A DNA stretch of 64,000 bases, from the NCBI RefSeq assembly GCF_001638985.1, contig NW_017265136.1, forward strand, positions 310,001-374,000. The letters are read 5' to 3'. Positions 27,611 through 45,750 of this stretch are shown here, piece by piece; the stretch's first letter is position 1; each line of letters opens with the position of its first letter. This stretch comes from Phycomyces blakesleeanus NRRL 1555(-). Lineage: Eukaryota; Mucoromycota; Mucoromycetes; Mucorales; Phycomycetaceae. The position numbers and the translations under genes are program-made. Below the pieces are notes generated by a model that was not told the DNA's origin, made no database searches, and saw only the letters and a list, made by a program, of their open reading frames with translations.

Positions 27611-28947
27611 GACAAAATCAAATTAAAATAGTGAAAAGAGAGAACAAAGAAGTAAAGATTGAAACACACACACAAAGAAGTTGGACTTTATGAAGGCAAA
27701 AAAAAAGAAAAAAAAAGAACTATTTCCCACATTTCCAAAAATGGGATATCTTTATCTCGCAAAAAAATTGAGTTACACAAAAATGTATAACTGCGCCTAG
27801 CACAAATAGTCCAAAGACATTGCCTTTTTTTTTTTTACTCTGGTTTCAACGTATAGGATTGGCTACATTGATAGAAAGTATAGGCCAAAAAAAAAAAGAA
27901 TATTAAATGTAAGAAACTGGATCCTTGATGTTATCATCAATATCAGTGGTTTATTACCTATTGTTATTATTCCATTTGATACTTGTTTGTCTGATTGCAT
28001 GCATTGTACTCCATGGATTCTTATTATGTACCTTGTCATAATTATCTCTGTATGTTTTGTTCAAATTTAAGAACTTTATGTAAGCTATACATGTACTTTT
28101 GTGTATGATTTCATTTGATTTTTCTCATATGAGCAAAAATTGTTTCAAAATAAGAACAAATAAGAATTGCATATCTTGGTATTTTAGTCTTGAAAATCTG
28201 GAGTAGATTGATTATCTCTAGTATTTTCTCAGCTATAAAATATATATATATATATATATATATGTATACAAAAAAGTAAGGGTAGATTTCTACAATAAGG
28301 CAGGTTTTGATCAATAATGCTTGTTGCAGAATCAGGAGAATAATATCAGTCATGAAAACTTTAGACGTATCACTAAAGTAACATATAAAGAAACTTCTTA
28401 TGTCAGCACATAAAAATAATATAAATATATATATATAAAGTATGGAGAAATATAGGTTACTCGGGCATGGTTACATTATAGGAAAAATTATAACCAAGAG
28501 AGAGAGAGAGAGAGAGAGAAAATTTACATAATCGATAAATAAGTCTCACCAAACACATTTAAAGCTTAACCTATAACTAAGCCATAAAAATAAGAAGAAG
28601 ACTGTTTAATAGTAAGATAGATAGATAGATATATGTATCGTTACTTTTGCTATAACAAAGAAAGGCTTAATAATTACTCTCTTCTTCATTATACTCCTTT
28701 TTCTATATATTATATCTCTTTCTTAAAATTTGGTCAGATCTCATTTTACCCCAGATTATGGTAGCTCCGAGCAAAGTTTTATATATAAAATATATATATA
28801 TTAAATTTTCTGATAGGTTGAATTGGTGGGTTGGCCAACATTAAATCTCAATGGATATGAACATTTATCCATTCTCAACCAACCCAGGGAAATGGATATC
28901 CCGTGTGCAAATAACCTTCTTTTCTTTTTTTGGAAACAAACCTGTAA
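27611..28947. other. Gene-free AT-rich spacer with microsatellites
   Basis: About 1.3 kb between the ligase start and the mobile element. It holds (TA)n at about 28238-28262, (GA)n at 28499-28519 and (GATA)n at about 28617-28632. No coding signal seen. Confidence 0.6.
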
Positions 28948-28961
28948 TACAGTCGTTCCAA

Positions 28962-29095
28962 CGCCAAAAGGCGGCTTTTTAAATGAAAAGGCGGTTAATA
29001 AATATTTCTAAAGGGCGGCTTTTCAATTCCCAAAAGGCGGCTTTTTTTAATTCAAGGGCGGTTTTCGATAATCCAAAGGGCGGTTTTTTTAGACC
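28962..29095. repeat. Left subterminal GGCGG repeats of the element
   Basis: Six short copies of an A-rich/GGCGG/T-rich motif (such as AAAAGGCGGCTTTTT and AAAGGGCGGTTTT) lie between the left end and the transposase start. The mirror set is at 39709-39841, and further copies (GGCGCC, CCGCCC) follow the transposase at about 30563-30597. They are candidate transposase binding sites; this is inference from position and repetition. Confidence 0.7.
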
Positions 29096-29140
29096 TTTTC
29101 TTTTTGTTAAACTTCGTTTTTTTTTTTTTTTCAAATAAAT

Positions 29141-30478
29141 ATGAAGACTACTCGCTTTTATTATGAAGACGGCCAGGGAAAATTGGTTGATGAGGAAGGA
29201 AACGATGCGATGGACTGGGTTGAGGAAGCTACTCCTTTTCACTTAAGAACTCTGACTCGTATCACAGAGTATTGTAGAAAGCAAGAGGAAGAGGGGGTTT
29301 CCTCCGAAGATTCCTTGGGAAATCTTGATGCTGATATGGAGGAAGTCATAGCTATAGTTAAGAAGCAGAAAAGACTTCATCACAAATACTCAAACGAGCA
29401 AAAGCTCGCTTTTGTGTATTATAACCGAATTAAATTATTTAACGCAGCTAAGTCAGGGCGCTTAGCAGGCGGCATAGCCGAGAGAACAGCACAGAAATGG
29501 GCCAAGAAACTCAAAGAGGATAAGGATTGGAACATATTTGAAAAACAAACCAATTTGGTCAATAGACTAAAACCACAATTGGATAAGAGACATAAGGTTC
29601 ACCTGTTAGAATTTTACGATAATTGTCCACAAGCACCCGTGCTTGATGCAATGGAATCACTCACTCAAAAATTCTCTGATCTGACTGTGAAGAAAAATAC
29701 TGTTCACAACTTCCTTAAGAATGAGTGCAACCTTTCTTTTAAGAAGTTAACACGCTTGCCGGTTGCTAGAAATAATTCAGATAAGATCCAAGCTCGTAAA
29801 AATTGGGTCATCAAGTGGACTGCTACTGATATGAATTATTTGGAAAACTGTGTATTCGTAGACGAGTCTGCATTTGATATAAACATGAGACCTCCTAGCG
29901 GATGGTCTGTAAAAGGAACACCCGCTATTACGACCACTCCAACCACTAAAACTGTGTCTCATACTGTATTAGGCGCCATATCAACAAAGTTTGTTGTTGC
30001 TATGGAACTCCATAATCCTCAAGAAGAAAGCTCTAAGAGAATTAAAATTGTTCACAGTGGTCGTAAAAGAAAAGCACCTACTGAAAAAAAGAAAAAATCT
30101 GGGGGTACAGAAACTGGCCACTACGTTAGGTTTCTCGAGAAGTGCATGGATGAAATGGATTTGTATCCAGAACTAAAAGGCCATTATATTGTGATGGACA
30201 ACGCGCCCATACATACTGCTGACCGGATTGATGAAATGATTACTGAAAGAGGTTACAGAAGCATCTACCTCCCTCCTTATTCCCCCGAGCTCAACCCAAT
30301 AGAGAATTTCTGGTCCATTGTCAAAAATAAGGTAAAACGAAGTTCGTTTAAAGATGCTGAAGATCTAGCCACTCGTATCGCTGAAGCTTGCAATAACGTC
30401 CCTCCCGAGCATTTGAATGCGTTTGCTCAACACTCTGTTAATTGCTTTGATATCTGCTTGCGCGGAGACCCTTTATAA
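29141..30478 (+). CDS. IS630/Tc1/mariner-type DDE transposase, left arm copy (intact)
   Basis: A single-exon 445-aa ORF. The N-terminal half has helix-turn-helix-like segments (KSGRLAGGIAERTAQKWAKK; LTVKKNTVHNFLKNECNLSF). The C-terminal DDE_3 catalytic domain has D in VFVDESAFD, D in YIVMDNAPIH and E in SPELNPIENFW. There are 34 residues between the second D and the E, i.e. DD34E, as in Tc1-like transposases. A basic, possibly nuclear-localising stretch (RKRKAPTEKKKK) lies between the first two catalytic positions. It catalyses cut-and-paste transposition into TA sites. All catalytic residues are intact, so this copy may be active. Confidence 0.92.
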   Translation: MKTTRFYYEDGQGKLVDEEGNDAMDWVEEATPFHLRTLTRITEYCRKQEEEGVSSEDSLGNLDADMEEVIAIVKKQKRLHHKYSNEQKLAFVYYNRIKLFNAAKSGRLAGGIAERTAQKWAKKLKEDKDWNIFEKQTNLVNRLKPQLDKRHKVHLLEFYDNCPQAPVLDAMESLTQKFSDLTVKKNTVHNFLKNECNLSFKKLTRLPVARNNSDKIQARKNWVIKWTATDMNYLENCVFVDESAFDINMRPPSGWSVKGTPAITTTPTTKTVSHTVLGAISTKFVVAMELHNPQEESSKRIKIVHSGRKRKAPTEKKKKSGGTETGHYVRFLEKCMDEMDLYPELKGHYIVMDNAPIHTADRIDEMITERGYRSIYLPPYSPELNPIENFWSIVKNKVKRSSFKDAEDLATRIAEACNNVPPEHLNAFAQHSVNCFDICLRGDPL

Positions 30479-30604
30479 AGCTTTTTAATAAAGATATAAC
30501 TATTCGATTCTAAAACAATAAAACGAACTTTGAAGCGAAAAACCGAAATTTGAAAAATTGAAAGGCGCCTTTTGGGTTTAAAAAAACCGCCCTTGAATTA
30601 AAAA

Positions 30605-30673
30605 GAGCCAATTGAACAGTTCTGGGCATCGGCAAAAGGCAAAGTGAAGTGCCACAAGCTTGAAGATAATTAA
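30605..30673 (+). pseudogene. Fragment of a second, related DDE transposase (C-terminal)
   Basis: Directly after the subterminal repeats that follow the transposase, 23 codons read EPIEQFWASAKGKVKCHKLE.. then TAA. This matches the block around the catalytic glutamate of DDE_3 transposases, but it is closer to the dead element at 43560-43620 (PIEQF-AIAKSKIKRH) than to the intact neighbour (PIENFWSIVKNKVKRS). It suggests the element inserted next to, or recombined with, a related transposon before the arm was duplicated, since the right arm carries the same fragment. Confidence 0.7.
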
Positions 30674-30920
30674 AAAGGACAGAAATTATGTGCGTTCTTT
30701 TTCTTTGTACTTACTTTTCACCCGCCCTCCTCTTAAATCAAACCCATAATCAAACCCATTTGGATCTGGATCTTCATGATCTGGATCTTCAATTTGGAAA
30801 TTAGAATTAAACGCCTTACAGCACTTATAATTTATTCCTATTATTGTTTTTACTTTTATTCTTTTTATATTTTCTACGAGACAACACAAGTCTTCTCCAC
30901 AAACTTTAATAACTGCAGCC

Positions 30921-32390
30921 ATGTTGACGGTACCAAAATCGAAATGCAAGCAATGTCTTAAGCCCATTCATTCCACAAGAAATAAAATAGGGCTCTGTCA
31001 AGACTGTAGGAAAATACCAACGGAGAACCCGCAAGCCTTCAGTTTTGAAGAAGGTTCTGAGCAAGCTTTAGGCACGCAAGGTCAAACTGTTAGTCAAAGA
31101 AAAAGATCACATCATTTTGTACATTCTGTGGACTGTCAACCATTCAGCTTGGAAGTATTTGATCGCGATAAACGTACAAAGCTTTCAACAACATTTGCTT
31201 TGATGACAAACGATTCTGCCCTTAGTCTTACTTCTTTGATTGATTTCCAAAATAATATCACGTCTGGTATTTTTGACGGAAGGGTTTCTTTCTCATCAAA
31301 TGATACGATCGAACCAGTGTTAAAAGACAGTGCTTGTATCTCTGCCAAGCTCGAAATGACTGTACGCGCCTCTACTGTTCCAAAACTCTTGCAGGAGCTA
31401 GGGCCATATCAAGAAATTGATGCGACGGTACTAGACTTACTAAACTACGATTTCCGGCTCAGATCTGAATTGATTGAATTAATACCACCATTATTCTGCG
31501 GTGCGTTGCTTCACGATAGCATCACTTTACTTATTATTACGTGCGAAGTGTACAGCCGTCACTCTTCGGTTGATATACACTCCGAGTCAACTGAATTCTC
31601 TGTTCCCGGCGAATCCTCCAGATACAAGAATCGCATGTCCTGTACTACATATGAAAAATCGGATGGTGGTGCTACGAAACTGAAGCTTATCATTGGAACG
31701 AAGACCGTCAACCTTTTGATTACTTGCTCTGCTGAAATATCAACTGAACCTAAAATCAACATTGGACCTGGTGTAGAGTTTGGTCATGGTTCAATCACGG
31801 ACTCAAATTGCAAAATCTACTTGATGAAATCAAAAGTTGAAGAATTTTTGAAAATGTTCGAGACCTTCAAATTAAATCCTTTACACGTCAATATATCAAA
31901 TTTGAGACAAATTACATCGAGTTTCAGCAAATGCTCATCTTATTTACTATGGAGATCTACGTTGCAAGAATTTGACAGTAGTATCTACTCGCCGGCAACA
32001 GTGTTCACTCTTTGTGACTTACCGAACAAAGATGGGTATGGCGTTGGAGCAACATCTGGTGCTAAACTTGGTTCTCAAATATTACAAATACTTGCAAAAG
32101 CGATATTAGTCAACAAAGGTGTCATCCAGCCCAGTGATTTCTATAACGTTTTATTGGAGTATGAGAGTATAATGAAACAAAAATGCGATGTAAAAGAGTG
32201 GTTCTCGATCATTAAAGTATTGGATGGAATAACTGCAAGTCTAATTTCTAGTGAATTGAGCGTACCCTCCTTCTGCAACAACAATGGTGGATCAGTCAGT
32301 GAAGTCGCCAATAAATTAAGCAGCTCAATTTCCACAGCGAATAATATGATTGCAAAAAATGTCAAGAAGTTATTACAATTATACCAGTAG
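30921..32390 (+). CDS. Unknown 489-aa CxxC-CxxC protein, left arm copy
   Basis: A single-exon ORF starting at ATG 30921. Cysteines 9, 12, 26 and 29 (CKQC...CQDC) form a likely zinc ribbon at the extreme N-terminus. The rest (about 460 residues) is a mixed alpha/beta composition with no membrane segment and no nuclease or polymerase motif I can recognise. The last ~40 residues are Ser/Asn/Lys-rich. It is carried inside each arm beside the transposase and stays open in both diverged copies, which argues that it is a real gene of the element. A DNA-binding accessory role is only a guess from the zinc ribbon and position. Confidence 0.75.
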   Translation: MLTVPKSKCKQCLKPIHSTRNKIGLCQDCRKIPTENPQAFSFEEGSEQALGTQGQTVSQRKRSHHFVHSVDCQPFSLEVFDRDKRTKLSTTFALMTNDSALSLTSLIDFQNNITSGIFDGRVSFSSNDTIEPVLKDSACISAKLEMTVRASTVPKLLQELGPYQEIDATVLDLLNYDFRLRSELIELIPPLFCGALLHDSITLLIITCEVYSRHSSVDIHSESTEFSVPGESSRYKNRMSCTTYEKSDGGATKLKLIIGTKTVNLLITCSAEISTEPKINIGPGVEFGHGSITDSNCKIYLMKSKVEEFLKMFETFKLNPLHVNISNLRQITSSFSKCSSYLLWRSTLQEFDSSIYSPATVFTLCDLPNKDGYGVGATSGAKLGSQILQILAKAILVNKGVIQPSDFYNVLLEYESIMKQKCDVKEWFSIIKVLDGITASLISSELSVPSFCNNNGGSVSEVANKLSSSISTANNMIAKNVKKLLQLYQ

Positions 32391-32899
32391 TCATTAAATG
32401 CATATTATATTAGTTAATAAAAAAAAATAACGAGATTACTTTATTCCAGCCGTTATAACTTCCATTGAGCCTTTGACTGAAGGATAAACCACAATGCTTC
32501 ATTTACCCCCATTAGTAAAATAGCATCAATTTATCCATTTTCAATACGTACAACCCAATCATTCATATAATCGTCCACGTCATATGTTGATGCTTCTTGT
32601 CTCCACTGCACATTAGAATAAAAGGAAGAGTTCAATTACCCCAACGCTAAAATATTATTTCCTTTGTCAACAACCAAACAAATGTTTTCTTTTCACCATC
32701 ATATCTCAGGGCCAACCTTTAATCGCAACCGTTTATTAGCTCGCGAGCTCCAAATATTTGTAGTGTAAGACATTTAGTTTTTTACAATCGCAGTATAAGA
32801 AATAAGAATATCACGCCGAAGAAAAAAGCACTGTTTAAAAAGCACTGATTTCAAACAATAATGACCAGTCTTGAATAAAACAAGTGCCGGAGTACTAAT

Positions 32900-33325
32900 T
32901 CACACATTCACGGCTGCGCTCAAATGAAATCAGTACTTGAGTACCGATTTCACACAGTCACGGCTGCGCTCAAATGAAATCAGTACTTGAGTACCGATTT
33001 CACACATTCACGGCTGCGCTCAAATGAAATCAGTACTTGAGTACCGATTTCACACATTCACGGCTGCGCTCAAATGAAATCAGTACTTGAGTACCGATTT
33101 CACACATTCACGGCTGCGCTCAAATGAAATCAGTACTTGAGTACCGATTTCACACAGTCACGGCTGCGCTCAAATGAAATCAGTACTTGAGTACCGATTT
33201 CACACATTCACGGCTGCGCTCAAATGAAATCAGTACTTGAGTACCGATTTCACACACTCACGGCTGCGCTCAAATGAAATCAGTACTTGAGTACCGATTT
33301 CACACATTCACGGCTACGCTTGAAT
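32900..33325. repeat. 50-bp minisatellite, 9 units (left arm)
   Basis: CGGCTGCGCT recurs exactly every 50 bp at 32911, 32961, 33011, 33061, 33111, 33161, 33211 and 33261, with a variant (CGGCTACGCT) at 33311. Each unit contains an imperfect palindrome: AATC-a-GTACT-tg-AGTAC-c-GATT. Units differ mainly at one position (CACACATTCA / CACACAGTCA / CACACACTCA). Confidence 0.95.
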
Positions 33326-33339
33326 AAAATACCATTGTT

Positions 33340-33626
33340 GACTGTGGTATACACACCACAATTGAGTGAAGAACAGACCCCACAACCAAACACTGGTTCC
33401 TTCTTGCTAATGAACCTGGCAAGTTAACAATCTCCGGAACTGTTACACACCAGGCACACGTACACTACGCACTCATACAGTGTAAACCAACCATTACACA
33501 ACAGGGATTTGAATGGTAGCAGATATAAAAACAATATTATTTTGTCTCTTTAATAAATAACACTCTCACAGTATCTACTTTTCCCATTATTGAGATACTA
33601 ACCCATAAACAATCCCGAATACCTCA
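33340..33626. repeat. Inverted LTR-like repeat, left copy (partner 34624-34910)
   Basis: About 287 bp are repeated in inverted orientation on the other side of the Gag ORF and appear identical by eye. Read from the minus strand the right copy begins TGTGGTATACACACC and ends ATACCTCA, i.e. TG...CA like an LTR. True LTRs are direct repeats, so the inverted arrangement is abnormal. No convincing tRNA primer-binding site follows the right copy. Confidence 0.8.
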
Positions 33627-34600
33627 CGTTCCTCTTGGAACAGGGAGTCTGTCTCCTCACCACTAGTGGCCACAATCAACGGTATGACTTGGTGTATGTT
33701 CTTGGGAACAACCAAGCCGTAGTGCTGCGTAAGTGTTTGCCACGCTTTCTCTCTTACAGGTCTCAACAGCTTGGAGGTGAAGAGCCATACAAGCTCGTCG
33801 CTACTGTCGAGGTTGGCGGCATGAACGCTGTCCAGGAATCTTTCCGCGTATGCTCTGACGAGCTCTCCTGGCTTTTGCAGCATGCAGTGGACTTCATGCT
33901 TCTTGATCCACAGGTGGTACGGGTTACCGTGCTCGCTTTCTAGCTGCTGGCGTACCTCCTTCCACTTCAAACCTCTTCCGGCCCTTGTCTTCTCAAATGA
34001 GACGCGTTGTCTCTCGTCACAGGTAAGCCAGAACAAGCGTTCCCAGTGCTGATCAAAATCCAGGTTGTGTGCCCGGAGCTGCACTTCGAAGTCGTTCAAA
34101 AACGCGGCGATGGAGTCGTGGACCGCCTTGTTGGTCTGACGGACTGGTCCACCACGAAGCTGGAAGGCAGGAAGGTTGGGGGGAACGAAGGAGTCTGCCT
34201 TGTTGTTGCCTCGGTATTTTCCGGCTTTCTTCTCAATATTGGCCCTGAAGACCTCAACGGCTGATGGGCTGGACATCATCTCTTGGGCGTCACAGAAAGC
34301 CACCCAACGCTCTTTGGTGTTGGCCACCTCTTCTTGGGCCTTTCTTATATCGTCGAGTTTAGCCTCGGGGTTTTCCAGAACCTTTATCAACTTTTCTGCT
34401 GCTTTCTTGCGGCAAGCGTCAATTTCTATCCCAATTGCCAGGATGTTGATTTCTTGGTTGCGTTCCTCTTCCTCCATCTCGAAGTCCTCGTTGTTGCTTT
34501 GGCTGTCTTCTCTTGTGTCCTTTTGCAATTCGCTCTTCTGCGATTCGTCATTCGAACTGGCGATGGAGGCATTCGCAATGTAATTGTTCATTTTTGTCAA
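33587..34600 (-). CDS. Ty3-like retrotransposon Gag ORF, 3'-truncated by the inverted repeat
   Basis: A 337-aa ORF. It has an acidic coiled-coil-like N-terminal half (EMEEEERNQEIN..., then DIRKAQEEVANTKERW), then a retrotransposon Gag core: LNDFEVQLRAHNLDFDQHWE, RLFWLTCDERQRV, WKEVRQQLESEHGNPYH, AYAERFLDSV. There is no zinc knuckle, protease, reverse transcriptase or integrase. The last 14 codons run into the inverted repeat, so the natural C-terminus has been replaced by repeat sequence. It cannot transpose by itself. It sits alone in the ~1 kb loop of the palindrome, between two copies of its own LTR-like sequence in opposite orientation. Confidence 0.75.
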   Translation of the reverse strand: MTKMNNYIANASIASSNDESQKSELQKDTREDSQSNNEDFEMEEEERNQEINILAIGIEIDACRKKAAEKLIKVLENPEAKLDDIRKAQEEVANTKERWVAFCDAQEMMSSPSAVEVFRANIEKKAGKYRGNNKADSFVPPNLPAFQLRGGPVRQTNKAVHDSIAAFLNDFEVQLRAHNLDFDQHWERLFWLTCDERQRVSFEKTRAGRGLKWKEVRQQLESEHGNPYHLWIKKHEVHCMLQKPGELVRAYAERFLDSVHAANLDSSDELVWLFTSKLLRPVREKAWQTLTQHYGLVVPKNIHQVIPLIVATSGEETDSLFQEEREVFGIVYGLVSQ

Positions 34601-34623
34601 AAATACAATTCACAGTAAAAAAT

Positions 34624-34910
34624 GAGGTATTCGGGATTGTTTATGGGTTAGTATCTCAATAATGGGAAAAGTAGATACTGTGAGAGTGTTATTTATTAAA
34701 GAGACAAAATAATATTGTTTTTATATCTGCTACCATTCAAATCCCTGTTGTGTAATGGTTGGTTTACACTGTATGAGTGCGTAGTGTACGTGTGCCTGGT
34801 GTGTAACAGTTCCGGAGATTGTTAACTTGCCAGGTTCATTAGCAAGAAGGAACCAGTGTTTGGTTGTGGGGTCTGTTCTTCACTCAATTGTGGTGTGTAT
34901 ACCACAGTCA
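34624..34910. repeat. Inverted LTR-like repeat, right copy
   Basis: Reverse complement of 33340-33626, upstream of the Gag ORF in Gag orientation, where a 5' LTR would be expected. Confidence 0.8.
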
Positions 34911-34928
34911 ACAATGGTATTTTATTCA

Positions 34929-35150
34929 AGCGTAGCCGTGAATGTGTGAAATCGGTACTCAAGTACTGATTTCATTTGAGCGCAGCCGTGAGTGTGTGAA
35001 ATCGGTACTCAAGTACTGATTTCATTTGAGCGCAGCCGTGAATGTGTGAAATCGGTACTCAAGTACTGATTTCATTTGAGCGCAGCCGTGACTGTGTGAA
35101 ATCGGTACTCAAGTACTGATTTCATTTGAGCGCAGCCGTGAATGTGTGAA
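34929..35150. repeat. 50-bp minisatellite, 5 inverted units (right arm, before the gap)
   Basis: Same unit as at 32900-33325 but inverted, with starts spaced 50 bp apart (about 34929, 34979, 35029, 35079, 35129). Sequence CpGs are still intact, as in the left arm. The copy number (5 vs 9) differs from the left arm. Confidence 0.9.
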
Positions 35151-35523
35151 TTAGTACTCCGGCACTTGTTTTATTCAAGACTGGTCATTATTGTTTGAAA
35201 TCAGTGCTTTTTAAACAGTGCTTTTTTCTTCGGCGTGATATTCTTATTTCTTATACTGCGATTGTAAAAAACTAAATGTCTTACACTACAAATATTTGGA
35301 GCTCGCGAGCTAATAAACGGTTGCGATTAAAGGTTGGCCCTGAGATATGATGGTGAAAAGAAAACATTTGTTTGGTTGTTGACAAAGGAAATAATATTTT
35401 AGCGTTGGGGTAATTGAACTCTTCCTTTTATTCTAATGTGCAGTGGAGACAAGAAGCATCAACATATGACGTGGACGATTATATGAATGATTGGGTTGTA
35501 CGTATTGAAAATGGATAAATTGA

Positions 35524-35623
35524 NNNNNNNNNNNNNNNNNNNNNNNNNNNNNNNNNNNNNNNNNNNNNNNNNNNNNNNNNNNNNNNNNNNNNNNNNNNNN
35601 NNNNNNNNNNNNNNNNNNNNNNN
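35524..35623. other. Assembly gap of 100 N
   Basis: Exactly 100 N, the usual placeholder for a gap of unknown size. Sequence after the gap restarts with GGTATTTTATTCAAGCG, the same as at 34916. So about 608 bp (34916-35523) are repeated at 35624 to about 36275, with differences. The two contigs may not be truly adjacent. Confidence 0.98.
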
Positions 35624-35635
35624 GGTATTTTATTC

Positions 35636-35906
35636 AAGCGTAGCTGTGAATGTGTGAAATCGGTACTCAAGTACTGATTTCATTTGAGCGCAGCTGTGAA
35701 TGTGTGAAATCGGTACTCAAGTACTGATTTCATTTGAGCGCAGCCATGAATGTGCGAAATCGGTATTCAAGTACTGATTTCATTCGAGCGCAGCCATGAA
35801 TGTGTGAAATCGGTACTCAAGTACTGATTTCATTTGAGCGCAGCTGTGACTGTGTGAAATCAGTACTCAAGTACTGATTTCATTCAAGTGTAGCCATGAG
35901 TGTGTG
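35636..35906. repeat. 50-bp minisatellite, decayed inverted units after the gap
   Basis: About 6 units of the same 50-bp repeat. Many CpGs are changed (GCAGCCGTG to GCAGCTGTG or GCAGCCATG; CGGTACTC to CAGTACTC), unlike the copies before the gap. Confidence 0.9.
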
Positions 35907-36415
35907 AATTAGTACTCCGGCACTTGTTTTATTCAAGACTGGTCATTATTGTTTGAAATTAGTGCTTTTTAAACAGTGCTTTTTTCTTCAGCGTGATATT
36001 CTTATTTCTTATACTGCGATTGTAAAAAACTAAATGTCTTACACTACAAATATTTGGAGCTCGCGAGCTAATAAATGGTTGCAATTAAAGGTTGGCCCTG
36101 AGATATGATGGTGAAAAGAAAACATATGTTTGGTTGTTGACAAAGGAAATAATATTTTAGCGTTGGGGTAATTGAACTCTTCCTTTTATTCTAATGTGCA
36201 GTGGAGACAAGAAGCATCAACATATGACGTGGACGATTGTATAAATGATTGGGTTGTACGTATTGAAAATGGATAAATTGATGCTATTTTACTAATGGGG
36301 GTAAATGAAGCATTGTGGTTTATCCTTCAGTCAAAGGCTCAATGGAAGTTATAACGGCTGGAATAAAGTAATCTCGTTATTTTTTTTATTAACTAATATA
36401 ATATGCATTTAATGA

Positions 36416-37888
36416 CTACTGGTATAATTGTAATAACTTCTTCTTGACATTTTTTGCAATCATATTATTTGCTGTGGAAATTGAGCTGCTTAATTTATTG
36501 GCGACTTCACTGACTGATCCACCATTGTTGTTGCAGAAGGAGGGTACGCTCAATTCACTAGAAATTAGACTTGCAGTTATTCCATCCAATACTTTAATGA
36601 TCGAGAACCACTCTTTTACATCGCATTTTTGTTTCATTATACTCTCATACTCCAATAAAACGTTATAGAAATCACTGGGCTGGATGACACCTTTGTTGAC
36701 TAATATCGCTTTTGCAAGTATTTGTAATATTTGAGAACCAAGTTTAGCACCAGATGTTGCTTCAACGCCATATCCATCTTTGTTTGGTAAGTCACAAAGA
36801 GTGAACACTGTTGCCAGCAAGTAGATACTACTGTCAAATTCTTGCAATGTAGATCTCCATAGTAAATAAGATGAGCATTTGCTGAAACTCGATGTAATTT
36901 GTCTCAAATTTGATATATTGACGTGTAAAGGATTTAATTTGAAGGTCTCAAACATTTTTAAAAATTCTTCAACTTTTGATTTCATCAAGTAGATTTTGCA
37001 ATTTGAGTCCGTGATTGAACCATGACCAAACTCTACACCAGGTCCAATGTTGATTTTAGGTTCAGTTGATATTTCAGCAGAGCAAGTAATCAAAAGGTTG
37101 ACGGTCTTTGTTCCAATGATAAGCTTCAGTTTCATAGCACCACCATCCGATTTTTCATATGTAGTACAGGACATGTGATTCTTGTATCTGGAGGATTCGC
37201 TGGGAACAGAGGATTCAGTTGACTCGGAGTGTATATCAACTGAAGAGTGATGGCTGTACACTTCGCACGTAATAATAAGTAAAGTGATGCTATCGTGAAG
37301 CAATGCACTGCAGAATAATGGTGGTATTAATTCAATCAATTCAGATCTGAGCCGGAAATCGTAGTTTAGTAAGTCTAGTACCATCGCATCAATTTCTTGA
37401 TATGGCCCTAGCTCCTGCAAGAGTTTTGGAACAGTAGAGGTGCGTACAGTCATTTCGAGCTTGGCAGAGATACAAGCACTGTCTTTTAACACTGGTTCGA
37501 TTGTATCATTTGATGAGAAAGAAACCCTTCCGTCAAAAATACCAGACGTGATATTATTTTGGAAATCAATCAAAGAAGTAAGACTAAGGGCAGAATCGTT
37601 TGTCATCAAAGCAAACGTTGTTGAAAGCTTTGTACGTTTATTGCAATCAAATACCTCCAAGCTGAATGGTTGACAGTCCACAGAATGTACAAAATGATGT
37701 GATCTTTTTCTTTGACTAACAGTTTGACCTTGCGTGCCTAAAGCTTGCTCAGAACCTTCTTCAAAACTGAAGGCTTGCGGGTTCTCCATTGGTATTTTCC
37801 TACAGTCTTGACAGAGCCTTATTTTATTTCTTGTGGAATGAATGGGCTTAAGACATTGCTTGCATTTCGATTTTGGTACCGTCAACAT
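36416..37888 (-). CDS. Unknown ~490-aa CxxC-CxxC protein, right arm copy
   Basis: Second copy of the unknown ORF, still open over its full length (490 aa; one extra Lys near the C-terminus). The four N-terminal cysteines are kept. An upstream in-frame ATG at 37933 exists only because ACG in the other arm became ATG here, so 37888 is the ancestral start. Amino-acid changes relative to the left copy are mostly those expected from CpG deamination (Arg to Cys/His, Thr to Met, Gly to Ser, Asp to Asn). Confidence 0.75.
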   Translation of the reverse strand: MLTVPKSKCKQCLKPIHSTRNKIRLCQDCRKIPMENPQAFSFEEGSEQALGTQGQTVSQRKRSHHFVHSVDCQPFSLEVFDCNKRTKLSTTFALMTNDSALSLTSLIDFQNNITSGIFDGRVSFSSNDTIEPVLKDSACISAKLEMTVRTSTVPKLLQELGPYQEIDAMVLDLLNYDFRLRSELIELIPPLFCSALLHDSITLLIITCEVYSHHSSVDIHSESTESSVPSESSRYKNHMSCTTYEKSDGGAMKLKLIIGTKTVNLLITCSAEISTEPKINIGPGVEFGHGSITDSNCKIYLMKSKVEEFLKMFETFKLNPLHVNISNLRQITSSFSKCSSYLLWRSTLQEFDSSIYLLATVFTLCDLPNKDGYGVEATSGAKLGSQILQILAKAILVNKGVIQPSDFYNVLLEYESIMKQKCDVKEWFSIIKVLDGITASLISSELSVPSFCNNNGGSVSEVANKLSSSISTANNMIAKNVKKKLLQLYQ

Positions 37889-38133
37889 GGCTGCAGTTAT
37901 TAAAGTTTGTAAAGAAGACTTGTGTTGTCTCATAGAAAATATAAAAAGAATAAAAGTAAAAACAATAATAGGAATAAATTATAAGTGCTGTAAGGCGTTT
38001 AATTATAATTTCCAAATTGAAGATCCAGATCATGAAGATCCAGATCCAAATGGGTTTGATTATGGGTTTGATTTAAGAGGAGGGTGGGTGAAAAGTGTAC
38101 AAAGAACAAGAACGCACATAATTTCTGTCCTTT

Positions 38134-38202
38134 TTAATTATCTTCAAGCTTGTGGCACTTCACTTTGCCTTTTGCCGATGCCCAGAACTGTTCAATTGGC
38201 TC
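38134..38202 (-). pseudogene. Fragment of second DDE transposase, right arm copy
   Basis: Mirror of 30605-30673, encoding EPIEQFWASAKGKVKCHKLE.. then a stop. It shows that the fragment was already in the unit before the arms were formed. Confidence 0.7.
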
Positions 38203-38328
38203 TTTTTAATTCAAGGGCAGTTTTTTTAAACCCAAAAGGCGCCTTTCAATTTTTCAAATTTCGGTTTTTCACTTCAAAGTTTGTTTTATTGTTTTAGAAT
38301 CAAATAGTTATATCTTTATTAAAAAGCT

Positions 38329-39666
38329 TTATAAAGGGTCTCCGCGCAAGCAGATATCAAAGCAATTACCAGAGTGTTGAGCAAACGCATTCAAATGCTC
38401 GGGAGGGATGTTATTGCAAGCTTCAGCGATACGAGTGGCTAGATCTTCAGCATCTTTAAACGAACTTCGTTTTACCTTATTTTTGACAATGGACCAGAAA
38501 TTCTCTATTGGGTTGAGCTCGGGGGAATAAGGAGGGAGGTAGATGCTTCTGTAACCTCTTTCAGTAATCATTTCATCAATCCGGTCAGCAGTATGTATGG
38601 GCACATTGTCCATCACAATATAATGGCCTTTTAGTTCTGGATACAAATCCATTTCATCCATGCACTTCTTGAGAAACCTAACGTAGTGACCAGTTTCTGT
38701 ACCCCCAGATTTTTTCTTTTTTTCAGTAGGTGCTTTTCTTTTACTACCACTGTGAACAATTTTAATTCTCTTAGAGCTTTCTTCTTGAGGATTACGGAGT
38801 TCTATAGCAACAACAAACTTTGTTGATATGGCGCCTAATACAGTATGAGACACAGCTTTAGTGGTTGGAGTGGTCGTAATAGCGGGTGTTCCTTTTACAG
38901 ACCATTCGCTAGGAGGTCTCATGTTTCTATCAAATGCAGACTCGTCCACGAATACACAGTTTTCCAAATAATTCATATCAGTAGCAGTCCACTTGATGAC
39001 CCAATTTTTACGAGCTTGGATCTTATCTGAATTATTTCTAGCAACCGGCAAGTGTGTTAACTTCTTAAAAGAAAGGTTGCACTCATTCTTAAGAAAGTTG
39101 TGAACAGTACTTTTCTTCACAGTCAGATCAGAGAATTTTTGAGTGAGTGATTCCATTGCATCAAGCACCTGTGCTTGTGGACAATTATTGTAACATTCTA
39201 ACAGGTGAACCTTATGTCTCTCATCCAATTGTGGTTTTAGTCTATTGACCAAATTGGTTTGTTTTTCAAATATGTTCCAATCCTTATCCTCTTTGAGTTT
39301 CTTGGCCCATTTCTGTGCTGTTCTCTTGGCTATGCCGCCTGCTAAGCACCCTGACTTAGCTGTGTTAAATAATTTAATTCGGTTATAATACACAAAAGTG
39401 AGCTTTTGCTCGTTTGAGTATTTGTGATGAAGTCTTTTCTGCTTCTTAACTATAGCTATGACTTCCTCCATATCAGCATCAAGATTTCCCAAGGAATCTT
39501 CAGAGGAAACCCCCTCTTCCTCTTGCTTTCTACAATACTCTGTGATACGAGTCAGAGTTCTTAAGTGAAAAGGAGTAGCTTCCTCAACCCAGTCCATCGC
39601 ATCGTTTCCTTCCTCATCAACCAATTTTCCCTGGCCGTCTTCATAATAAAAGCGAGTAGTCTTCAT
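38329..39666 (-). CDS. IS630/Tc1/mariner-type DDE transposase, right arm copy (intact)
   Basis: 445 aa, collinear with the left copy. The catalytic D (VFVDESAFD), D (IVMDNVPIH, with Ala to Val beside it) and E (ELNPIENFW) are kept with DD34E spacing. About a dozen substitutions distinguish it from the left copy; several (Arg to Cys, Ala to Thr, Glu to Lys) come from C/G to T/A changes at CpG. It is still open and could be functional. Confidence 0.9.
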   Translation of the reverse strand: MKTTRFYYEDGQGKLVDEEGNDAMDWVEEATPFHLRTLTRITEYCRKQEEEGVSSEDSLGNLDADMEEVIAIVKKQKRLHHKYSNEQKLTFVYYNRIKLFNTAKSGCLAGGIAKRTAQKWAKKLKEDKDWNIFEKQTNLVNRLKPQLDERHKVHLLECYNNCPQAQVLDAMESLTQKFSDLTVKKSTVHNFLKNECNLSFKKLTHLPVARNNSDKIQARKNWVIKWTATDMNYLENCVFVDESAFDRNMRPPSEWSVKGTPAITTTPTTKAVSHTVLGAISTKFVVAIELRNPQEESSKRIKIVHSGSKRKAPTEKKKKSGGTETGHYVRFLKKCMDEMDLYPELKGHYIVMDNVPIHTADRIDEMITERGYRSIYLPPYSPELNPIENFWSIVKNKVKRSSFKDAEDLATRIAEACNNIPPEHLNAFAQHSGNCFDICLRGDPL

Positions 39667-39708
39667 ATTTATTTGAAAAAAAAAAAACGAAGTTTAACAA
39701 AAAGAAAA

Positions 39709-39841
39709 GGTCTAAAAAAACCGCCCTTTGGATTATCGAAAACCGCCCTTGAATTAAAAAAAGCCGCCTTTTGGGAATTGAAAAGCCGCCCTTTAGAAAT
39801 ATTTATTAACCGCCTTTTCATTTAAAAAGCCGCCTTTTGGC
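39709..39841. repeat. Right subterminal GGCGG repeats of the element
   Basis: Inverted counterpart of 28962-29095, with CCGCC-containing copies between the right transposase start and the right terminus. Confidence 0.7.
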
Positions 39842-39856
39842 GTTGGAACGACTGTA

Positions 39857-41157
39857 TGTCAAATAACAACATCTTTATATTCTATTATATTCTATACTTT
39901 TAATTCTCAAATATAAAAAAAACCAGTGACGCACCCTTGAATGTCAAAGGAAAGAAAAAGAAAAGAAAAACAGGGCAGGCTTGGGTTTACAGATCAAACC
40001 TAATTTGTTTGAAACAAGAGCCTTGATCATCAAGATCACATTTTGAATATATATATATATATAAAGGCTTTTTCAGGGCCAATAGTCTATAAAGTATACG
40101 GCTCGATAGTAATAAAGACCTATACTTGTGAAATTGTTAAAGTACAATTAATAAAATAAAAATAAAAAGGCTAATTTAATGATGCGTCTATAAATAATTT
40201 TCTTATAGATACAGATATATCCATTCTTCTTTAAGAAGCGTATCTCTATAATTTGATTTCTTCGATCGACTCCCGCACAGATAAAGACTGGGGGAGGACT
40301 TTGTGTAATTCACATATACTCCACATTTTTCTCTTTCTTTTCTTTCTAACCGGATAAATACAGTTTGATCTAACATATGCCAAGGATTTATTTTATTTTA
40401 TTTTAATAAATAAATAAATACTTTAATTTTCTCAACAAACTTTTATTTTTTTATGGTTTCCATGACAACAAAAGCCAGACAAACTCGGGGTAAAATTAAG
40501 CCTAATATGTTGTTGACATATATACACACTATGGTATTATTATTTTTTTGAGCAAGTAGTAAATAAATAAAAGAGGACCTTTATTTATTTTTCGGATTAA
40601 ATACTCCCCTTTGGCACCGGTACCATATAGCGGTCATCGTTATTTATATATCGCATTGAAAATCAGAACAATAGAAAGAACAAAAGTAGCACCTTTTTTC
40701 TTTTCTTTTTTTTTCCAATTGTAGTTACCATGAACCTTTTTCTTGCTTTCAAGATTTTTTTTTTAAAATGCAAATGTAAATATAAACGCATATATCGCTT
40801 TGAAAGAATTGGAAGTAAAGAATTGATAGTGAAAGAGCATAAAATGTATCTAATAATTGATTCTTTTTTTTTTAATGATCTGGATAATATTTTATTGTCC
40901 TAATCTCTTCTGGTCCCAATTCTATCTTGACCAGAGATTGGACTAACAACATCTATACGTAAAATCATTGCGATAATTATTTGTACAATAATAATAATAA
41001 TGATAATAATGATCAAAAAAAATTATAGATGAAAAAAGAACAAAAATGAATATTGAAATGTATGTATGTGTATGAAAATGGGATGCAAATTCAAATATGA
41101 TGAATAGACAGCTTATGTTGTGTATTATGTGTTGAATGTTTATGAATGAATGTGTTT
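39857..41157. other. Gene-free AT-rich spacer
   Basis: 1.3 kb with poly-A/T runs and short (TA)n and (AAT)n tracts. No coding or RNA feature could be supported. Confidence 0.6.
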
Positions 41158-42125
41158 TTATCTGTAGTACAATTCCAAGTTCATTCCATTGTTGAGCTCA
41201 TCTATAAAAAAAATATCAAGCAAGTAAATATATATATATAAAAGAACAAATCAATAAAACTTACAATCACTCAATGTAATATGATCCTTGAATTCCTTGT
41301 ACCACTTCTTCAGTACGATCTTTTGAGGTTCTGTACCGATCTGAGCTGCGACCAATTTCTTAAAGTCGCCAACCGTGTCTGAGGGACTACATTTCACACG
41401 AACTTTCTTGCCCAATCTATCATTGACCTCTAATTCAATCAAACTATATCTAGGTTGAACCTTTTGAATGATTTTAGGCTATAATACATATATTTAAATA
41501 TTATTATTATTATTATTATTAAAAGTATTAGTATTAGTATTAGTATATTTTTTTTTTAAAAAAAAAAAGAACTTTTTATATATGTTTATGTCTTACCTTT
41601 TCAGTTACAATCTTTTTTGGTGGAGATTTGCTGCGTGGCCGAGGAGTTTTGGTTTTCTTGGGAGATCTTGATCGCGATCTCCTTGATAAACGACGCTCAT
41701 CTCGGCGAGGGGATCCACTTCTGTACGAAGATGTGCGGTCTTTGCGGGGCGAACGGCTTCTGTGTGAAGACGTGCGGTCTTTGCGAGGCGATCGACTCCT
41801 GCGTGAAGACGAACGTTCTTTGCGAGGCGATCGATCTCTACGAGGAGAGCGGGACCGGTTCGACGAGTGAGGTGCTCGACTGCTTTGCTTTCCCTCATCA
41901 CGATCGTCACGATTGGTCAATGCTTTAGATTGAGAAGAGGATTCCTCTAAAAAAAAGAAATTATAGAATTAAAATGGAATGCATATACATTTATTTAAAA
42001 AAGTGGTTAAGAAAAGTAAGTAGATGGTTGAATGAATGATTTCTTTTCTTCTTCTTTTTTTTATATCAAACAATAAAGGTTAGAAAGATTGACTCACCTT
42101 GTTCATGCTTTTTGAATCGCAACAT
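41158..42125 (-). CDS. HUB1: RS-domain/Hub1 (UBL5) fusion, 4 exons, 211 aa
   Basis: Exons (minus): 42125-42098, 41946-41597, 41478-41265 and 41201-41158; the frame closes (636 nt). The C-terminal ~73 residues are Hub1/UBL5: [40 protein letters not shown] and the ending MNLELYYR with the typical double Tyr and no Gly-Gly tail. Hub1 is a ubiquitin-like spliceosome modifier that binds HIND motifs (Snu66/Prp38) non-covalently. Residues ~40-115 are an Arg/Ser domain with repeated [10 protein letters not shown] units, as in SR splicing factors; such a domain is absent from the 73-aa yeast and human proteins. Each junction is in phase, so the two parts form one protein by this model. If an internal start were used (MIELEV is not available as ATG; the site is TTG-ATT), normal Hub1 could not be made alone. 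Confidence 0.85.
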
Positions 42126-42297: not shown

Positions 42298-43720
42298 TAC
42301 AGTGCTTCCAACAGTCAATTTCGTACTTTCCGGGAACCATGTCGTGCATTTGAAAATGAAGTCGTGTTACGATGATTTCTTGGAACACTCGAAAAATATA
42401 AAAGTAGGTCATTTCATCTCCTGGGTCTGTTTTTTTTTTCGTTTCTTCAATTGTTTAAAGTTTAACATGAGTGCAATATTTTTATTTGAAGATGGACATG
42501 GAAATGTCGATGAGAATGGAGGCCCTGAACCCATGGAATATATCGTTGATCAGAATTAATTTATTGTAGAGTCGATTGCGACTCATAGCGAGTACTTGAA
42601 AAATATGCCCTCTTGTGAATCTTCATCGGTTTGTCCAATGTTGATAGAAAAGCCAAAAGATGAAGACATCCGTATGAAAGAAGCAGACACAAAACGTGAT
42701 TACGTGCGGTACACCGTTCAGGATAAGGCTCGATTTTTCGACCTGAAGATTGAAAAGTGTATGAGCGCATCAGCTGCAGTGAAGCAGTTGGGTATTCACA
42801 TTCGAACTGCGCAGAGATGGATTAAGCAGTACAATATGCGTCCTGATAGTATTTTCGAGGTTTGTAAGCAGGTTGGTCGTAAATGTATCTTGAGCGAAGA
42901 GCATAAAACTGCTGTTATCGACTTCATTGATGCTAATCCTTCTGCTGCTGTTGTTGAAATGACTGAACATTTGTTGAATCGGTTCAATGATCTTAAAGTT
43001 TCACGTAGCACTGTTTATAATTTCATGAGAAGTGAGTGCAATCTTTCTTTGAAGAAAGCTGACTTCCATTCTATCGAAAGAAACAGCCTAGAAAAGATTG
43101 AAGAGAGACATGATTGGGTTCGTAAATGGGAAAATACTGATACGAATCTTTTGACGAATTACGTGTTTCTTGACGAGTCAGCTTTTGATATCAATATGAA
43201 ACACTCAAGAGCTTGGTCCAAAAAAGGTACGCGTGCCATTGTTACTCGGCCTACCACGAGAGCAAACACAACATCGATACTGGGTGTTATCTCAGCTGCA
43301 GGTTTGATCACAGTTGGCGTAAAAAAACCAAGACCTGCAAAGAAGAGAAAGACGGAAGGGGGTATGTAAGCTCAGGGACTGTGACTGGCCACTACATAAA
43401 TTTCTTAAAAATGACTCGATGAAATGGACAAACACCCTCATATGAAGGGTCATTATATAGTCATAGATAATGCACCCATTCACACGCATGAAAACATAAG
43501 GAAATACATTTTATATCGAGGATATAAATGTGTATATCTTCCTACATACTATCCGGAGCTTAACCCAATAGAACAGTTCTAGGCAATAGCAAAAAGTAAG
43601 ATTAAGCGCCATAGGTTTTTGCAGGAAGACACTTTATCAAAGAGAATTACAGAAGCGTGCAATAATGTAGAAAAAGGTCACTTCAAAGGTTTCGTTTCGC
43701 ATTCTTACAAGTGTTAGAAT
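42298..43720 (+). mobile_element. Dead Tc1/mariner-type element (left end recognisable)
   Basis: TA|CAGTGCTTCCAAC at 42298-42312 closely resembles the terminus of the palindromic element (TA|CAGTCGTTCCAAC), so both belong to one family. A transposase pseudogene follows. I could not find a matching right terminus downstream. Confidence 0.6.
42467..43718 (+). pseudogene. Broken DDE transposase related to the palindromic element's
   Basis: Reads MSAIFLFEDGHGNVDE..., then an in-frame TAA at about 42557, then a long open stretch (TVQDKARFFDLKIEK; HIRTAQRWIKQY; VSRSTVYNFMRSECNLSLKK; YVFLDESAFDINM), a frameshift near 43366, then GHYIVIDNAPIH, LPTYYPELNPIEQF, a TAG in place of the conserved Trp (43580-43582), and AIAKSKIKRH. 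Domain order and catalytic motifs match the intact transposases, with one early stop, one frameshift and one nonsense change. It is not functional. Confidence 0.88.
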
Positions 43721-45750
43721 AAATGTCAAAACAGGGAACCAATGTAATGGCCACTGACCGCAAACATCTCTCACGCAGCATGGAAAAAAAAAGCCTCGAG
43801 CACCCCAGTGAGCTTCAAGAAGACTCCATGAAGGCAAAAGGTGGTGGTGATGATGTGGAGGCAAAGTGCGTCAACGATTGGGCACAATTTCATGTAAAAA
43901 AGGAAATTACTTATGCCAAGTTTTAAGTCTGCCTTTGGTAATTTTTTCTCTTTGAATTTTCTGTAAATAGATGAGATGTGGTGCATAACATAAGAGTGAA
44001 AGCAAATATAGTGTTGGTGAATAAGAGCAGAACGATTTACGGATTTCTCTTTTATTTTTTTCACAAGTGAGAAAATACGCTGCGAGTTGCGGGAACAATA
44101 GAAAAATTGGTATCATTAATTAATCATTGGAGTAAGGTGGATAGGTGAGATGAAATAAGGAAGTTCATATCAACGAACGCTTGACACAACCAGGCCGACA
44201 ATCAAATTTGTTGATAAGATTTCCATGAAGAACGTTTTGTCGTGGTATTGATTCGAATTTGTGTCCATGGTATACAGCCAGTTCCTTGATTGATTTAAGT
44301 TCTCTATGGATACAATAAAAAATGTGAGCGCTGTTCATACGAGAAATCCATGATTTATAGGCAATTGTTTTCATACCTGACAAATTTTCGTATATCCATG
44401 GGATCCGTGGATAAGCCAGTGTAGTCCAACACAACAAGCCGTACGGAAAAGTTGGTTGATTTCGCAAATATAATCAAATCTTAGGCGGATATAAAGAAAA
44501 ATGGCTAACTATTAACTTCCAGTTTCGTTGCTGTCCACCTTGCATATTGCTATGCTTATGGCGAACACTGTCCATGAGATTGAGAGTCGGCTTTGTAATG
44601 TGCGAGAAGTCACACAATAAGAGAATATGAATAGAACGAATATGAAGATAAAGATAATGTTTATTTGTTGGAATATTTGAGATATTTATATGTTTTGGGA
44701 TATATGATATAATTGGTGAATGACTAAGAGACGATATTTGCTAAGTAGTTATTACTAAGTGATTTGTTACCAACTACTTCTTTGTCATTGCTTATTAACA
44801 TTCTTAATAAGGCAATATCTTATGATTGGATAATACTGTGACTGAGTGTCAATTACAATCCAGTCCTGACAGCTTTGTATCATGTTGGCATAATTTCGAT
44901 CCAGAGGAGCACATGGGGGGGGGGATAAGAAGACTTTCGCACAGTGACATTTGATAAGGAGGAAATCTGTCATCTTTTGTATTGGCTTGATCTTGTTTTT
45001 CACAGGTTCATTTGTGCGTGATTTTTGTGCATAACCGACATTGATCCAACCATGTGATTCCATTGATGCGTCCAAAAACGATTTCGTGTTCAAGGTGATT
45101 TTCAAGACTTCATCTATAAAAAAAAAGACTGTTTGTTTTTGCACTTTTGTTTTTTTTTTAGTGACATGCACCGTAATTTATATACTCACCCCAATGGTCT
45201 TGCTTGACAATCCACAAAGATTGTCGCTTTTCTCTTTTGCGACCGATGCGTGTAACTTGTGAGTAGCAAAATCAACCATCCTTTGACAACCAATCAATCA
45301 TTTGTGTGGGAGAGTAAATGACAACTATATTCGGCATAAAGCTCTTGACAAAGTCAAATAATTCGATGTTGTTCCAATGACCAAATGTGTATAATTATCT
45401 GTTCACTGGTGCATCTTTCGATGCGATGCAGTTGAATAAATCAAGTACACAGTGTTTCGTTGGCTTTACTAAGTGGTTGAGACAATATCAGCATTCACAC
45501 AATCAGCTTCACAATGCACTCGAATAAGCAATCACTTACAATTATTGTAGGTAGACTTGTCAGAAGGAACAGATGAAGAATCAGAGCCTACGGCAAAACA
45601 TAATAAAAAGAATGAGTGGCATTTCTTTCACGAGTTGTTGTCATTGTTTTGTTTTGTTTTTGCCTACAGTTTATCGCTTCATCATTACTAATCACCGTAT
45701 TTACAATACGAGGAGAAGAGGAAGGGGTGTCAACATACAGTCAACGCTCG
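43721..45750. other. Gene-poor region with unrecognised decayed coding-like segments
   Basis: On the minus strand, open segments at 44165-44467 and 44785-45171, and a stretch near 45290-45370 reading FVKSFMPNIVVIYSPTQMID, have protein-like composition but are separated by stops. I do not recognise a family. They could be the remains of a mobile element or a dead gene. Confidence 0.35.

Follow-up and report, generated by a model that had tools for sequence, protein, structure and literature searches.

Results

We analysed a 64,000-nucleotide stretch of the Phycomyces blakesleeanus NRRL 1555(-) genome (positions 310,001 to 374,000, forward strand, of contig NW_017265136.1 in assembly GCF_001638985.1), referred to here as the window, in which a palindromic Tc1/mariner-type element occupies positions 28950–39854. 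Relatives were sought across the 53.5 Mb assembly of 60 contigs, in which the window lies on contig C3. A repeat finder paired the outer ends, 28947–29128 and 39676–39857, as 182 nt of 100% complementary sequence. The left terminus (28950..29130, + strand) is made up of the tip CAGTCGTTCCAACGCC and ~22-bp subterminal repeats (AAAGGGCGGTTTT-like), the right terminus covers 39677..39854 (− strand), and a TA adjoins both ends, at 28948..28949 (from the sequence, a presumed target duplication) and at 39855..39856. Within the element, exact matches to the tip CAGTCGTTCCAACGCC (0 mismatches) were confined to 28950 and, in reverse, to 39839; all other sites had at least 4–5 mismatches, and no further copy was found inside the element at ≤3 mismatches.

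Each arm carries two open reading frames (ORFs), a transposase and a second gene that we call ORF2. The left transposase (29141..30478, + strand) and the right (38329..39666, − strand) are both open, 445 aa long and matched by PF13358 (DDE_3), with E-values of 5.7e-27 and 5.9e-26, and the right one appears as a CpG-decayed version. The DD34E spacing was counted by eye in the translation, with 34 residues between the D of MDNAPIH and the E of NPIENFW. Left ORF2 is open over 489 aa (30921..32390, + strand), and right ORF2 (36416..37933, − strand) is open over 505 aa from an upstream ATG, that is, a 490-aa frame with an N-terminal extension. The repeat finder reported inverted arm blocks at 29120–30710 / 38097–39687 and 30713–32369 / 36440–38096 (98%), and the arms form a single alignment from the outer end inwards, with 4237 columns at 97.7%. 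The original prediction, made from this sequence, was therefore borne out in its exact inverted termini with TA on both sides and in its arms of more than 4 kb, each with an intact DD34E transposase and ORF. It had also described two complete gene sets; both genes are indeed open in each arm, but the sets are unequal, the right arm showing CpG-type decay.

The centre of the element is less orderly. A left tandem array of a 50-bp unit (32899..33320, + strand, 8.4 copies) is followed by a 284-bp repeat resembling a long terminal repeat (LTR; 33343..33626), inserted at the arm's inner end and present in many genome copies, and then by a partial LTR-retrotransposon gag-like stretch (33627..34622, − strand; ORF 33587–34600), which forms the loop of the assembled palindrome. 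The next piece, 34623..35523 (− strand), mirrors 32526–33626 with four array units fewer, includes the LTR-like repeat beside the partial gag, and runs up to an assembly gap of 100 N in the right arm (35524..35623), beyond which lies the right array with 5 copies of the 50-bp unit (35637..35884, − strand). Segment 32526–32898 is reproduced letter for letter in this mirror piece, and the remainder differs in length by 200 bp, equal to the four units. The Pfam gag match at C3 fell below its cut-off, and the gag of another genomic copy, on C6, runs on past the point where C3 switches to the mirrored LTR. A genome search with the LTR-like repeat (33343–34906 region; 40 of 428 candidates scored) gave many ~300-bp copies and four longer gag-bearing copies among the matches listed. 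The piece 34623–35523 may be an artefact of assembly, or else an inverted duplication that happened very recently; for the centre as a whole, where the choice lies between a fresh inverted duplication and an assembly fault, we lean towards a fault. Since the gap and the mirror piece make the centre and the 10.9 kb length unreliable, what stands of the predicted 10.9 kb palindrome is its palindromic architecture.

Palindromic relatives across the genome

We scored 95 of 591 candidates in a genome search with the transposase, which yielded 96 listed matches, or 93 loci after merging. C3 and C15 each contribute two closely related arms (≥95% identical), four in all among the matches listed, while the other matches reach at most 61% identity in the transposase and 35% in ORF2, with DNA matches of only short pieces. 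The sister at C15:550270-558811 is a gap-free palindrome of 8.54 kb with a short unique loop and arms of about 4.1–4.3 kb that are 99.8–99.95% identical. The genome matches to the transposase, ORF2 or DNA included no single-arm copy ending in another terminus, so the ordinary single-arm copies that would have pointed away from a palindromic element did not appear. The sister confirms the palindromic architecture and, together with this search, supports the proposal of a Foldback-style element built from Tc1 parts.

It was observed that neighbouring transposases within 10 kb of each other, among the matches listed, were in opposite orientation in 13 pairs and in the same orientation in 1, and inverted pairing is thus not a matter of chance. 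Alignment revealed mirrored arms in 10 of the 13 opposite pairs, the other three being non-matching neighbours or unfetched. Adding C4:1020, C4:2894 and C30, which other searches had turned up (C30 has no transposase match among those listed), gave 13 palindromic elements for examination. Arm identity outside the arrays is 98.2–100% in 12 of them, the thirteenth being C4:2894, which has a 787-N gap. TA stands on both sides in ten (C3, C15, C43, C8:765, C4:2414, C4:2894, C20, C21, C4:1020 and C30). The repeat listings and sequences place tandem arrays at the arm–loop boundary in 10 of the 13, with sequences that differ between families. One-armed relatives or remains were seen at C8:1777 and C36.

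These data bear on whether the whole palindrome could be an artefact, an ordinary element mirrored by the assembler. The 100-N gap and the mirror piece in the centre of C3 are what such an error might leave, and the C3 right arm, which has no substitutions of its own outside the array and mostly equals C15, is as misplaced C15 reads would make it. Against this, the mirrored sequence extends no further than the transposon ends, beyond which the flanks are unlike each other, C15 is free of N throughout, gaps occur among the 13 palindromes only in C3 and C4:2894, and ten inverted transposase pairs have matching arms. We consider a wholly artefactual palindrome most improbable.

A transposase tree of the fetched loci (35 rows, 30 different) requires the palindromic label to change 5 times or more. 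This label was given to 22 rows, including the one-armed C8:1777 and the gapped C4:2894, and rows called 'single' lacked both a mirrored partner among the listed matches and an inverted arm in the flanking sequence fetched, which was usually 1.5 kb. The tree suggests that the palindromic form arose more than once or was lost repeatedly within the genome. Common ancestry of all palindromes is unsupported by it.

Other elements were noted along the way. C29:434391-435978 holds a 1.5-kb foldback element that has no ORF of 100 aa, and C3:2263433-2263582 a miniature element of ~150 bp with a tip of the same type. In the window, a decayed Tc1-type transposase relative with 39% identity and 8 stops occupies 42476–43741, about 2.6 kb away from the palindrome, and a 39-bp tandem repeat at 41705–41834 falls within an Arg/Ser-rich ORF.

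Copying of the palindrome and similarity of its arms

C43 and C8:765 represent another palindromic Tc1 family in this genome. Bases 1–5396 of C8:765 align with reversed C43 (3–5447) at 94.4%, colinear through both arm–loop junctions; both elements end in TA plus CAGTGAC, and their flanks differ. Colinearity over the whole length at unrelated sites indicates that the palindrome was copied whole, and colinearity through both junctions that the common ancestor was already a palindrome, predating the split. Across 1566 aligned sites of the four arms, 61 group the arms of the same element (pattern aabb), compared with 1 abab and 1 abba, a ratio that argues for homogenised arms. To judge from these alignments, then, the C43/C8:765 palindrome is one that has been copied whole and whose arms have been homogenised. 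For the four arms of C4:2414 and C20, 165 of 1148 sites were aabb and 0 otherwise; this is weaker evidence because alignment is limited to the arms and, at 64%, the loop gene. Lesions common to both arms of a pair were also seen, with two TAA in each arm of C43 and one TGA in each arm of C8:765.

An alternative is that each palindrome is recent and arose independently from a single-armed element, without homogenisation. The near identity of the arms and the existence of one-armed relatives (C8:1777, C36) would fit this, but the C43/C8:765 palindrome predates the split of the two elements and yet has arms closer within than between them. The idea is contradicted for that pair, may hold for others such as C29, C18 and C8:1587, and as a general account strikes us as rather unlikely.

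Apparent CpG decay of the right arm

The left and right arms of C3 differ at 70 sites (of 3915 or 3945). In 52 of them C or G on the left faces T or A on the right, and these C-to-T-type changes lie in CpG in 40 cases and in CpA in 5. CpG sites were changed at 15.9% of 252, versus at most 2.1% in other contexts. The changes are common to the right arm of C3 and both C15 arms. Proteins from other sources favoured the left state at the ORF2 differences (P0001 at 15 of 15; P0002–P0005 at 8–10 versus 0–1 where comparable) and, by P0008–P0010, at the transposase differences (10–12 versus 2–4). The right arm thus looks CpG-decayed. Repeat-induced point mutation, which is CpA-biased, was rejected as the cause, given 40 of 52 changes in CpG against 5 in CpA. 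According to the accessible part of a study of Phycomyces, CG methylation is concentrated in repeats and TcMariner insertion is ongoing; the study also reports PacBio assemblies of strains L51 and UBC21 (PMC11258239).

The right arm is not fully trustworthy in this assembly. Over its aligned part outside the array it has no substitution of its own and equals C15 over most of its length, but as far as arm position 263 its four informative sites are left-like, the right-type (R-type) sequence starting by 356. Gene conversion from C15 and misplaced C15 reads explain this pattern equally well. Under the second explanation, only the centre and the right-arm interior of C3 would be misassembled, and the real element would be a cleaner palindrome with two left-type arms. 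The mirror piece at the gap is identical to the left arm, and the agreement between the two arms at the four informative sites in the right arm's outermost ~260 bp, before R-type sequence begins between 263 and 356, also fits; conversely, conversion from C15 would give the same pattern, and by eye a few sites distinguish the right array by the gap from the array of C15. We rate misassembly confined to the C3 interior at a little under an even chance.

A relic of an inner terminus and a proposed origin of the arms

Behind the left transposase of C3 lies a truncated inverted terminus (30512..30609, − strand) that corresponds to outer bp 90–179 without the outer 89 bp; its mirror copy falls, by mirrored coordinates, at 38198..38295 (+ strand). 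The left relic scored 62, compared with a maximum of 29 in 500 mononucleotide shuffles, and the equivalent relic behind the left transposase of C15 scored 49 (shuffle maximum 30), with the truncation point alike in both left arms at outer bp 90; shuffle maxima for the two elements spanned 27–30 when they were scored together. Shorter relics in C43, C8:765 and C8:1587 scored 48–53 against shuffle maxima of 31–35. The search covered the left arms of C3, C15, C43, C8:765, C8:1587, C4:2414, C20, C21, C4:1020 and C30. The prediction that no internal transposon end follows the transposase therefore needs amending, since a truncated end is present, though no complete or likely working one is. Because the outermost 89 bp are missing, the C3 inner terminus is unlikely to work, and the proposal that the outer ends are the sole mobile ends stands. 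Two-ended elements of 1.5–2.0 kb with inverted ends are present in the genome (C11, C37, C8:1392 and C22), and a relic without the outer 89 bp is expected of an ordinary element minus its second tip, which points to an ordinary element of ~1.7 kb, with one of its ends lost, as the likely ancestor of each arm.

The same observations could be read as a composite transposon, two ordinary elements inserted close together in opposite orientation whose inner ends then decayed. Two-ended elements of the right size exist, and each C3 arm holds an apparent former two-ended unit. The C3 arms, however, remain alike for ~2.6 kb past the old inner end, through ORF2 into the array, and the shared truncation point in the C3 and C15 left arms also argues against this reading. 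A composite origin is, in our view, very unlikely.

Overall, the C3 element is probably a palindromic Tc1/mariner-type transposon that would move whole, with its arms kept alike by conversion, and that derives from an element with one end lost. By this account, an ordinary ~1.7 kb element would have become unable to move alone once the outer 89 bp were gone from one of its termini; an inverted duplication would then have set the good terminus at both outer edges. The transposase would pair the two outer termini and move the whole palindrome into a TA, arm-to-arm gene conversion would keep the halves alike, and accessory genes in the loop and arm DNA would travel along. Several observations weigh against it. 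C3 itself is the poorest case for homogenisation, given its 70 arm differences, and its right arm, with 4–6 differences from C15, is nearer to that element than to the left arm of C3. There is no TA at the right edge of C8:1587, the aligned C29 and C18 arms do not start at a recognisable Tc1-type tip, and no inner relic was found in the left arms of C4:2414, C20, C21, C4:1020 or C30.

ORF2 and the loop genes

ORF2 may have a fold resembling that of alkyladenine-DNA-glycosylase (AAG), which would make the left ORF2 product a possible DNA glycosylase. E209, Y211 and H220 match the AAG pattern in which the catalytic Glu is followed by a Tyr at +2 and a His at +11 (E125, Y127 and H136 in AAG). E209 is among five nearly invariant columns, and some distant copies have other residues in place of the Tyr and the His. 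PF02245 was not among the 8 families matched at E ≤10 by 13 members of ORF2 set A1, a search in which weak matches may be filtered, and it had 0 matches in the genome at E ≤10, while 3 of 14 control genomes do match. In a profile–profile comparison with an AAG alignment of 54 bacterial sequences (a usable frame was obtained in 54 of 80 loci), ORF2 scored 13.5, compared with 19.0 for the best of 40 column-shuffled decoys, 14.6 for the reversed alignment and 13.7 for the unrelated A2. Foldseek gave no match for ORF2 at E ≤ 0.001, and the ORF2 profile had 5 matches to PDB sequences (E 0.55–2.1), none of them AAG. AAG homology by sequence was rejected on the lack of signal above decoys and of any PF02245 match in the genome, which leaves the fold match as no more than a lead. 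No ORF2 relatives were found in viral contigs. Mucor and Rhizopus proteins share 83–91% amino-acid identity with ORF2 over 57–71% of its length, identities that may point to horizontal transfer.

A related gene or its remains was found in the loops of six of the 13 palindromes (C20, C4:2414, C4:2894, C43, C8:765 and C4:1020). Some relatives of this loop gene have a C2H2 finger-like stretch, below Pfam cut-offs. D292 and E311 are nearly invariant among 31 rows, and a K at +2 of E311 appears in the consensus only. The PD-(D/E)XK nuclease motif has the form D...ExK, and the conserved D...GE[V/A]K of the C20/C4/C43 loop gene suggests a candidate nuclease of this kind; Foldseek gave no match for the C20 loop protein at E ≤ 0.001. 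C21 and C30 carry a third kind of cargo (matched by eye), and the C18 and C8:1587 loops contain no ORF ≥100 aa.

Loop-gene relatives were also observed elsewhere. A P. blakesleeanus gene named as a C2H2-type zinc finger transcription factor (P0137; C4:2415825-2417332) matches the palindromic-transposon loop gene. In Rhizopus delemar, P0152 joins a Tc1-type transposase with PF01498 to the C-terminal portion typical of the loop-gene family, matching 33% of the query at 93% identity, and is either a fusion or a gene-model error. P0128, P0129 and P0131–P0134, from the genera Hesseltinella, Sporodiniella, Apophysomyces, Benjaminiella and Mucor, have 76–90% identity over 58–85% of the query; these identities may reflect horizontal spread.

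Discussion

The best reading of the C3 element is a Foldback-like variant of Tc1/mariner, Foldback by its working and Tc1/mariner by its transposase. A CAGT-type tip is usual for Tc1/mariner, and the element shares with the DD34E branch of the IS630-Tc1-mariner group its PF13358 transposase, DD34E spacing, TA edges and CAGT-type tips. It differs in that everything is present in two inverted copies, with arms of more than 4 kb, a second gene and an inner end unlikely to work. Like Foldback, it consists mostly of long inverted repeats around a loop, as seen with the short unique loop of C15. Galileo, a Drosophila member of the P superfamily, also has very long inverted repeats, but with a 7–8 bp target duplication and a P-type transposase instead of TA and DDE_3. 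The accessible text on Galileo describes terminal inverted repeats (TIRs) that have been lengthened through tandem repeats, inserted elements or sequence from outside the TIR, and in the structural classes it names, TIRs and transposase segment are separate, unlike the present case, in which the transposase lies within each inverted repeat (PMC4168063).

If ORF2 were a glycosylase, the fungal DNA transposons with TET/JBP dioxygenases would offer a parallel as transposons with a possible DNA-modification gene, but in the available portion of that paper they belong to other transposase groups and carry another enzyme, with 0 occurrences of 'mariner', 'Phycomyces' or 'Mucor' (PMC12730594). The VANDAL/VANC anti-silencing transposons of Arabidopsis, as far as their available description goes, are a possible analogy for an accessory anti-silencing gene. 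Among the titles and abstract openings that our searches of open PMC papers listed, none described a Tc1/mariner element whose mirrored arms each hold a transposase. Within that scope, and as far as our searches reach, the transposase inside each mirrored arm, the copying of whole palindromes and the concerted arms are new.

A DNA transposon usually carries a single gene between short inverted ends. In the present element the inverted repeat includes the entire gene set, and the halves of a related family evolve in concert; with a palindrome copied whole and its halves kept alike, either arm can in principle serve to restore its counterpart. The C3 finding belongs to a wider set of palindromic elements in this genome. 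We offer, as a speculation with a low chance of being correct, that palindromic Tc1-type transposons are a recurrent class whose arms would serve as mutual repair templates against host-methylation decay, and whose glycosylase-like ORF2 or nuclease-like loop protein would act on host DNA or its modification for movement or escape from silencing. Because the accessible part of PMC11258239 places CG methylation in Phycomyces repeats and describes continuing TcMariner insertion, the ideas of transposition and arm repair are testable in a living system.

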